Source: Anabaena sp. UHCC 0204
GTDB lineage: Bacteria > Cyanobacteriota > Cyanobacteriia > Cyanobacteriales > Nostocaceae
Direction: 5' to 3'
Assembly: GCF_009711975.1 (NCBI RefSeq)
Contig: NZ_VIKW01000021.1
Span: 1 to 64,000, forward strand
DNA: 64,000 bases
A model generated the notes under the pieces. The model saw only the letters and a program-made list of their open reading frames with translations, had not been told where the DNA came from and made no database searches. Shown here one piece after another: positions 17,820 to 59,374 of this stretch (its first letter is position 1; each line of letters begins with the position of its first letter). The translations under genes and the position numbers were made by a program.

Positions 17820-17943
17820 GCAACAACAACATAATATTTATATCAGGGACTACATATCAGTTATCAATCAACAATTGAGAACGAACTATTGAATTGTAGA
17901 TACAGCACTTCCCGGAAATGGTATAGAAATGAAACTCTATATC

Positions 17944-18102
17944 TAAGTAGGTGGGCGTTAAAAATTGTCGTTGGGGCAAGGGAACACTATGGCTTACGCC
18001 ACGACAAGCTCAGTGCATCGCAGGGAACAGGGAACAGGAAGAGAGTTTTGGGCGATTTGACTTTTCTTCACATACCTTTAAATTTTTCTGTTCACCTACT
18101 TA
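17944..18102. mobile_element. MITE family 2, copy A (159 bp)
   Basis: Ends TAAGTAGGTG and CACCTACTTA are inverted; inside are AATTGTCGTTGGGGCAAGGG and, toward the other end, AAATTTTTCTGTTC. Copies lie at 29993-30102 (truncated) and 59149-59308, both in the opposite orientation. The middle differs: this copy carries an insert with GGCTTACGCCACG of the small dispersed repeat class. No coding potential. Confidence 0.85.
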
Positions 18103-18913
18103 TATAAGCAGTTAACAATCAAATCAGGTCAAATTACATTTGATTAATTCTCACTTCTGTATTTTCTCTTATTAACCGCTATTGTGACTTAATTTGCTGA
18201 CTGATAACTGTAACTGAACACACGATATTCACCTCATGGGGAATTAAAAATTAAAAACTAATTAGCAGCTAGTATCAAGTCATCACAGACAACAGCCGCA
18301 TCTCACCTTAGCTTTGGCAATGTTGACAACTATAGCTACCCATGAATTTTCTCATCACACCAATGCTGATTTTGCCGCTGGAGGCATAGAGTTAACAATT
18401 TAAATTGATATAGCCTCAATGCTAGATTGAGAATACTGTTAATAGACTAATGAAGGGTTTCACCCCTCATCCTGAAAATCTTGATTTTAGATTATAAGAA
18501 TATTTTAAAATCGGTTTTATCGTTATAGATCTAATGCCTTAAAAGTCCGTAAAATCAAGTCATACTAGGGGTGCTGGGTGTGACCCCCTGTTAATTATCT
18601 CACAAAAATGTAGGTAAAAAAATGTTAGGACTGAACAATCAAAAAAAATAAAAATAAATGCCAAATTGGCAACCATCACATCAGGAAGCAGGCTAAATTA
18701 TATTAGACAAGCGAAAACAAGGGAGTTGTTAAGAAGCTGAATCAATTAACATCATCATCTTGTAGAGATTGTCCTAAAAATAAATAGAATTAGTATTTGC
18801 TGCATAGGAATACCTGCTAAATATAGGCGTTATCGTTAACCTGCAAATTACCCCCCTAATTTAACGGTTATCGTCTGTATGAATAAATTCCTAAACGCTT
18901 CAGCAGCAAATGG
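18103..18913. other. Gene-poor spacer, 811 bp
   Basis: Between the channel gene (minus, starts 17819) and the kinase gene (minus, ends 18978) there is no convincing long frame. A 27-codon plus-strand ATG frame exists at 18320-18403 without a clear ribosome site. The downstream plus-strand terminator suggests that part of this spacer is transcribed. Promoter-like TATGAAT lies at 18878-18884. Confidence 0.4.
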
Positions 18914-29984: not shown

Positions 29985-29992
29985 AAATTTTG

Positions 29993-30102
29993 TAAGTAGG
30001 TGAACAGAAAAATTTAAAGAATTGCCCAAAACTTTCTTCCTGTTCCCTATTCCCTATTCCCTATTCCCTGTTCCCTGTTCCCTTGCCCCAACGACAATTA
30101 AC
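29993..30102. mobile_element. MITE family 2, copy B (truncated; expanded heptamers)
   Basis: Starts TAAGTAGGTGAACAG and matches copies A and C up to CCCCAACGACAATT, then stops exactly at the glcD stop codon; the second terminal repeat is missing. Its centre holds six tandem 7-bp units of the type (A/G)TTCCCT at about 30041-30082, which are much shorter in copy A. Confidence 0.8.
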
Positions 30103-37782: not shown

Positions 37783-37882
37783 GCGCAGCGTGGCGTAAGC
37801 CATACTCCTATAAGGGCGAAGCATTCGGGTGATAAATTATCCATTTTTTGTCTAAGGCCATTTTCCGAATGCTTCGCCCCTA
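37783..37882. repeat. Small dispersed repeat plus 15-bp perfect inverted repeat
   Basis: Arms GGGCGAAGCATTCGG (37814-37828) and CCGAATGCTTCGCCC (37865-37879) pair perfectly around a 36-nt loop. Just before is GATAGCGCAGCGTGGCGTA (37784 on), a unit seen in variant form at 27865-27890, 49445-49475, 49705-49738 and 59320-59345. The element sits 13 bp from the stop of the ABC ATPase gene. Confidence 0.8.
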
Positions 37883-52203: not shown

Positions 52204-52659
52204 TTAGATGGCTTTCTCAAATAATATAGCCAGTGCTTGCATTAGGTTAAGACACTGCTGTGATGTCATAGTATGTGGTTGCAAGGTAGTAGATGCTGAA
52301 TACTTTAAAATCAAATTTCTCACTTGCTGAGAATTCAAATCACTAATATTTACTGCTTTCATAGACCAAACCCCAAAAAGACGGCTTTCGATGGGAATAA
52401 ATTCAATCAATTCCGGTGTATGATGGCGCGTGTCTAGGGCAATGCGATGATAAGTTTTACTAATTACTGTGCGATAGCGAAGCGCTCCGCAGGAATCGCC
52501 TTCTAATATCTGCAAAAATATCGAATCACCATAACAGAGTAGTCCTGTAACCCCTTCAGAACGGTTGTTGTTCTCAGATTTTTCCATGATATCTTTGAGA
52601 TCATGATACCCCATATCTGATTTTGCATAACTACTGTAAATTAGACGGTATAAACTCAT
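52204..52659 (-). CDS. pixD: PixD-type BLUF photoreceptor with 7-residue insertion
   Basis: A 151-residue FAD blue-light receptor of the short PixD (Slr1694) type. In this numbering Y8, N32 and Q50, the flavin-site residues of PixD, are at exactly the family positions. After D55 seven extra residues (SCGALRY, 56-62) are inserted, so the conserved Trp and Met, W91 and M93 in Slr1694, are W98 and M100 here. In Synechocystis PixD binds PixE and controls phototaxis; no pixE is adjacent. AGGAG five bases before ATG 52659 selects this start over the ATG at 52662. The insertion is made by a dispersed repeat; a working protein is likely but unproven. Confidence 0.92.
   Translation of the reverse strand: MSLYRLIYSSYAKSDMGYHDLKDIMEKSENNNRSEGVTGLLCYGDSIFLQILEGDSCGALRYRTVISKTYHRIALDTRHHTPELIEFIPIESRLFGVWSMKAVNISDLNSQQVRNLILKYSASTTLQPHTMTSQQCLNLMQALAILFEKAI
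52471..52499. repeat. 21-bp small dispersed repeat inserted in a HIP1 site of pixD
   Basis: Removal of 21 bp from this 29-bp stretch leaves GCGATCGC, a perfect HIP1 octamer, and restores the normal reading frame and PixD numbering. The inserted unit has the core AGCGAAGCGCTCCGC, itself palindromic, of the small dispersed repeat type described in Nostoc. Confidence 0.8.
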
Positions 52660-59148: not shown

Positions 59149-59308
59149 TAAGTAGGTGAACAGAAAAAATTAAAGGTATGTGGAGAAAAGTAAAATCGCC
59201 AAAACTCTCTTCCTGTTCCTCCGCAGTCGCTCCACTTGGGGAGACCCCAAGACCGCGCTGCTCTCTGTTCCCTTGCCCCAACGACAATTTTTAACGCCCA
59301 CCTACTTA
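59149..59308. mobile_element. MITE family 2, copy C (160 bp)
   Basis: Full-length element with ends TAAGTAGGTG and CACCTACTTA. Orientation is opposite to copy A (17944-18102). Its centre carries an insert with CCACTTGGGGAGACCCCAAG (about 59230-59256) that differs from the insert of copy A and is absent from copy B. Another small repeat CCACGCTACGCTATCAGAC follows at about 59328-59348. Confidence 0.85.
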
Positions 59309-59374
59309 GCAATCTTGATATGGCTTTCGCCACGCTACGCTATCAGACAGAAAGTAAAAGGGAGAAAAATCTAT

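Follow-up and report, generated by a model that had tools for sequence, protein, structure and literature searches.

In the lineage of Anabaena sp. UHCC 0204, an SDR5-type element of 21 nt has very probably entered the HIP1 octamer within a pixD gene after the split from the nearest sampled relatives, leaving the reading frame open and adding the residues SCGALRY, most likely tolerated rather than selected, to a loop of the BLUF photoreceptor. The frame stays open because the length of 21 nt is divisible by three and the element lies in a phase that brings no stop codon. The gene is found on the minus strand of the window, the whole stretch of 64,000 nucleotides that was analysed, and the features concerned are listed below.

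52204 to 52659, minus strand: pixD-like gene of 151 amino acids plus stop, a BLUF photoreceptor with seven extra residues, whose start codon is the second ATG.

52471 to 52499, no strand assigned: split HIP1 octamer, GCG / 21 nt / ATCGC; relatives have the uninserted octamer.

52474 to 52494, minus strand: 21-nt insertion, seven codons, predicted residues 56-62 SCGALRY, defined by a gap of exactly 21 nt in the related genes L131-L136, L004, and L005 and by residue numbering.

52476 to 52494, plus strand: 19-nt repeat core AGCGAAGCGCTCCGCAGGA, with 24 genome copies at ≤3 mismatches.

52474 to 52475, no strand assigned: one of two ATs that each match the centre of HIP1; judging from the sequence, this one and 52495-52496 may be a 2-bp target duplication.

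The minus-strand frame at 52204-52662 matches the Pfam BLUF domain (E 3.1e-24), and the closest PDB match to its product is Slr1694 (2hfn, E 1.1e-43). Two adjacent ATGs open the frame; the first is absent in the sister genome G013, which has the second one only, and residues were therefore numbered from the second ATG (52659). Counted in this way, Y8, N32, and Q50 of the flavin site are present, while W98 and M100 occupy the places expected from a preliminary description of this DNA, according to which W91 and M93 of PixD appear seven positions later. The same description placed the insert in a loop behind D55, and the HMMER alignment with Tll0078 has a single seven-residue gap directly behind that residue, the loop itself being backed by a structural model discussed below. 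In the alignment with Slr1694, the seven missing residues fall into one plus six. Both of these PixD proteins have the same BLUF fold and the same Y8, N32, Q50, W, and M, but lack the seven additional residues 56-62, which here lie between strand beta3 and helix alpha2.

The 29-mer at 52471-52499 reads GCGAT-AGCGAAGCGCTCCGCAGGA-ATCGC, and the SDR5-type unit as found here is AGCGAAGCGCTCCGYAGGA. With AT on both sides of the core, the 21 nt can be placed in more than one way: either the octamer received the 19-nt core and its central AT was doubled, or a unit of 21 nt went in between bases 3 and 4 of HIP1, and at the level of sequence the two descriptions are indistinguishable. A symmetric 2-nt staggered cut of the palindromic HIP1 would leave such a duplicated central AT as its scar. 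The core occurs only once in the window when searched at ≤5 mismatches, and elsewhere in the genome two other copies are identical to the pixD copy over all 29 nt. Since pixD has itself reached a dS of 0.48 to G013, this identity makes movement or copying of the repeat look recent relative to pixD divergence, and the element look young.

The polarity of the change was read from pixD in relatives. Each of the eight other full-length pixD genes compared at the insert site is exactly 21 nt shorter, which bears out the description of a 21-bp repeat splitting a HIP1 site in a BLUF gene. Five of the eight (L131, L133, L134, L135, and L004) have an intact HIP1 there, two are one base off (L132, GCGACCGC; L005, GCAATCGC), and L136 reads GGAAATCGC. 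The sequence GCGATCGC without the 21 nt is found in pixD of Anabaena catenula FACHB-362, A. lutea FACHB-196, Dolichospermum sp. UHCC 0259, a Nostocales MAG, and G069, and the sister strain Anabaena sp. UHCC 0187 has the one-base HIP1 variant GCGACCGC. Outside the insert, the DNA identity of pixD is 90.2% with A. catenula and 88.6% with UHCC 0187. When 38 PixD rows were aligned (32 of 57 loci from a contig scan, five from a search of 100 genomes, and the window, with G066 supplying two rows), the seven residues were present in the window row only and in none of the other 37, distant ones included; an insert shared across the clade, and hence ancestral, had been the case to check. The 25 loci left out of the alignment include 21 readable at the site, in which the insert is absent by eye, and four that are unreadable there (L147, L160, L175, and L183). 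Because HIP1 is intact in five relatives and the residues are absent from the other 37 rows, the insertion is, on this comparison, derived, having arisen on the branch to this genome after the split from the nearest sampled relatives.

The repeat is not confined to pixD. Its 19-nt core is found at 24 places in the 5.74-Mb genome at ≤3 mismatches, as compared to none for a reversed-pattern control, and therefore does not owe its number to chance. The arms GCGAT and ATCGC are exact in 22 of the 24 copies and one base off in the other two, and the sequence beyond the arms varies from copy to copy. This agrees with the earlier view of a small dispersed repeat that entered HIP1 in frame, as seven whole codons in pixD, and shows other HIP1 sites, five further genes among them, to be split by the same unit. 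The genome has 3214 HIP1 octamers. A looser pattern, GCGATN{10,40}ATCGC, was rejected as a copy count; it gave 389 genome places and 52 in the reversed control, mixing neighbouring HIP1 sites with split ones.

Long open frames contain eight of the 24 copies, that in pixD included, and the comparison with relatives covered six of the remaining seven. An in-frame gain of 21 bp relative to congeners is seen in at least five genes besides pixD, namely lpxB and the genes of a protein kinase, a DUF4079 protein, a caspase-like protein, and a membrane protein, and an element of the SDR5 kind would have acted there as it did in pixD; for related genomes, the same is judged from open frames. It is the comparison of uninserted and inserted sites that points to mobility of the repeat. 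For the membrane protein gene, whose product is TspO-like by reading and has no Pfam match, 9/9 relatives that possess the gene lack the 21 nt and 9/9 have an intact HIP1. In the DUF4079 gene, all 15 relatives are 21 nt shorter, nine of them with an intact HIP1, and the Pfam domain spans the insert. The 21 nt are likewise absent from 15/15 relatives of the kinase gene, in which the Pkinase domain spans the insert and four relatives have an intact HIP1. The kinase copy has ATCGG as its right arm, and GCGATCGA or a close variant stands at the site in several relatives; its target was therefore perhaps one base off HIP1 before insertion. In lpxB, whose Pfam domain also spans the insert, 14 of 15 relatives lack the 21 nt, four of these with an intact HIP1; the remaining one, G012, has the same insert at the same site and in the same orientation, and therefore the lpxB insert must either have persisted through a species split or have been exchanged. 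Uninserted relatives without an intact HIP1 number 10/14 for lpxB and 11/15 for the kinase, and these two targets were at best HIP1-like or have drifted since. For the caspase-like gene, in which the insert precedes the caspase domain, the other six genomes with a match (6/6) lack the 21 nt and one (G001) has an intact HIP1; identity is only 48-70% and orthology less sure. A GGDEF gene (L030) with distant homologues only has a gap of exactly seven residues in 7/10 and of nine in 3/10, while the copy in L031, a long open frame without a Pfam match, stands outside the tally of compared genes.

Further remnants and junctions were observed around these loci. In G007, L011:1501-1668 is a pixD pseudogene whose homology ends right behind the same HIP1 octamer, with unrelated sequence beyond, which places a deletion end point at HIP1. 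The DUF4079 gene of G014 (L116) is uninserted by length and has GCGATTCCTA where most relatives have HIP1; this may be an in-frame-trimmed remnant of an older SDR5 copy. At L026:1418-1705, the beginning of a response regulator and the last part of a GGDEF domain are fused in one short frame, and an SDR5 copy sits where they meet, as though an internal deletion had stopped at a repeat.

The opposite course of events, in which the 21 bp were ancestral and were precisely deleted in relatives, e.g., by recombination at HIP1, is exceedingly unlikely. Site-specific recombination has been connected with HIP1, and so, as far as the title of a cited work goes, has excision (PMC4390886); both the G007 pixD remnant, ending right after this HIP1, and the G014 sequence, if it is a trimmed insert, would suit deletion. 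The residues are nevertheless missing from every other PixD row, and the five other loci have the same polarity, which would require many separate precise losses.

Within the genus, the 29-nt pattern is present at ≤3 mismatches in all 16 genomes, with 5 to 92 copies each and none in the reversed control, and at ≤1 mismatch it was found in 4/120 genomes sampled across the order, own genome included, one of the four being of another family. Plasmid records with the repeat, 10 in one search and 15 in another, carry Nostocales names, and a search of phage records gave no match. On plasmid CP150887.1, an annotated dnaX (L188:73-1623) has an SDR5 copy near its 3' end. G007 and G008, and also L191:1501-1530, contain variants starting GCGATCGCGAAG or GCGATCGCAAAG, in which one base change restores the left-end HIP1. 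Other cores, with the endings GCGCGACCTAGGA and GCGCACCGAAGGT, occur in the same HIP1 frame in genomes of the genus, which suggests subfamilies that spread on their own. The window itself holds a separate short repeat family, GATAGCGTAGCGTGGCGTTAGCCATA-like, with at least four copies in both orientations (at 37783, 49449, 49716, and 59319), and a longer dispersed repeat at 17943-18107, 29988-30099, and 59149-59309, one part of which is 100% alike over 44 nt and which is possibly a MITE.

How the repeat behaves in coding sequence was followed in 101 copies from five genomes: 24 from this genome (≤4 mismatches over 29 nt) and 77 (≤3 mismatches) from 60 hand-picked stretches of G005, G006, G007, and G008, which are a subset of the copies in those genomes. 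Among the 101, 23 lie in long open frames, meaning at least 25 codons on each side and 120 in all, which is no proof of a gene. Fourteen of these loci belong to other genomes; a Pfam scan of 13, with L241 left out, gave a match somewhere in 12 and none in L195, and only some of the matches span the insert. In relatives, the presumed insert lies inside the Pfam domain of a QueC, a CHAT, and an NB-ARC/NACHT protein; for glycosyl transferases, a LytR-family protein, an M16 peptidase, and others, it falls outside the domains or between them. The heptapeptides seen are variants of SYGALRY, IPTERFA, IAKRSVG, SEALRRN, and FLRSASL. The consensus of the repeat is open in five of its six phases and brings TAG in one, and HIP1 sites in the window fall into the three phases 10, 4, and 7 times out of 21. 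No copy in a long frame occupies the stop-bearing phase (0/23 against 3.8 expected from these HIP1 phases, p 0.015; or 0/5, p 0.03, given phase), although the test is weak: numbers are small, frames are unverified, and a single small frame (L241) holds two of the five.

This lack of stop-phase copies fits translation combined with selection against stops, and speaks, within the limits of the test, against the view that excision at the RNA level or ribosomal bypass takes out the 21 nt, with a normal protein as the result. Mobile bypass elements do occur in yeast mitochondria, and the element can fold as a hairpin in which the HIP1 halves are paired. The 29-nt folds, computed for two variants on both strands, are however no better than those of shuffled sequences (energy z -0.20 to 0.27), and the RNA-structure argument for the repeat was dropped. 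RNA excision or bypass is regarded as very unlikely, and the seven residues are presumably translated as part of PixD.

In the structural model, the BLUF fold is intact and residues 56-62 form a disordered loop between beta3 and alpha2. The AlphaFold model of PixD, built with the 38 rows, has a mean pLDDT of 87.1, and its sole segment below 50 is 59-62, between the strand 47-56 and the helix 64-74. When the model was used in a structure search, the first 24 PDB rows were PixD chains, with TM scores of 0.82-0.88 by query length, and the fold is probably kept despite the insert. The dN/dS of pixD is 0.109 against G013 and 0.158 against G012, so that the gene has apparently been under constraint, these values being averages over both branches and no proof of function after the insertion. 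A pixD match at E 1e-15 was found in 12 of 100 genomes searched, own genome included; because 11/15 congeners have no match at this threshold and the gene has decayed in G005 and G007, it may be dispensable in this group.

Open frames hold a smaller share of the repeat copies than of HIP1 sites (23/101 vs 21/26, p 8e-8, the HIP1 figure coming from the window only), as would be expected if the majority of insertions into genes do harm, or are neutral at best, and are selected against. The result bears on whether the insert is adaptive, retuning the photocycle of PixD, its decamer formation, or its binding to PixE. PixD acts through a light-controlled dimer or decamer and its complex with PixE (PMC5899715), and a new surface loop could matter for that reason; the passages of this source on the decamer and PixE leave the beta3-alpha2 loop unplaced. 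The low dN/dS would also suit such a role. With inserts of the same size in unrelated genes, and with copies comparatively scarce in open frames, adaptation is nonetheless very unlikely, and a tolerated insert is preferred. Natural pairs of proteins with and without the insert (PixD, LpxB, and the kinase) allow a direct test of an unplanned seven-residue loop, and they may also help to find what moves SDR5.

Elhai et al. 2008 are said to have described the SDR families, in a size range that includes about 21 nt; for SDR5, a predicted hairpin was reportedly backed by compensatory changes, and the family is said to be confined to a coherent group of cyanobacteria. The counts in the genus, the order, and the plasmid and phage records are in line with such confinement. 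SDR5 is reported to enter HIP1 at one exact point, between its third and fourth nucleotides (Elhai 2015, PMC4390886). The arrangement GCG / 21 nt / ATCGC in our alignments has this form, with equivalent placements through the flanking AT, and a seat inside HIP1 is seen in the exact arms of most copies and in uninserted relatives with an intact octamer. The repeat in pixD, sharing with SDR5 this entry point, a length of about 21 nt, and Nostocales hosts, matches a new copy of that known module, a name given by site, precision, and length and not by a published consensus. What sets the present material apart is that copies were traced into coding genes with uninserted orthologous sites. No report of SDR5 within protein genes was found among the titles and abstract openings of open-licence literature, which did not include Elhai et al. 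2008. Neither this type of element nor its targeting of HIP1 is new; what is added here, without a claim of priority, is a set of polarised in-frame insertions, in which a very small repeat enters protein genes at a fixed octamer with the frame unbroken.

Other known systems resemble this one in part. REP sequences sit within tnpA-REP genes of subclass 2.4, which are abundant in cyanobacteria (PMC6006769), and they too are short repeats within a gene; their host gene, as described there, is however the REP transposase itself, and no HIP1 target is mentioned. As for MITEs, a 2-bp AT duplication would be compatible with the sequence here. The closest parallel in behaviour is offered by the Rickettsia palindromic elements, one repeat family that is described as entering unrelated protein genes in frame and adding a stock peptide (PMC10969869), much as pixD and five other genes with uninserted orthologues were entered here. 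The Rickettsia elements are about 150 bp long and bring their own coding frame, which is not the case here, whereas the present unit has 21 nt, five possible heptapeptides, and a fixed octamer as its target. We tentatively propose that SDR5 could be a coding-compatible mobile module dropping one of five heptapeptides into HIP1-bearing proteins, and a continuing source of loop insertions in Anabaena/Dolichospermum-type cyanobacteria. If this is true, SDR5 would be a cyanobacterial counterpart of these Rickettsia elements, though about seven times smaller, with an element of 21 letters able to add seven amino acids to a protein.
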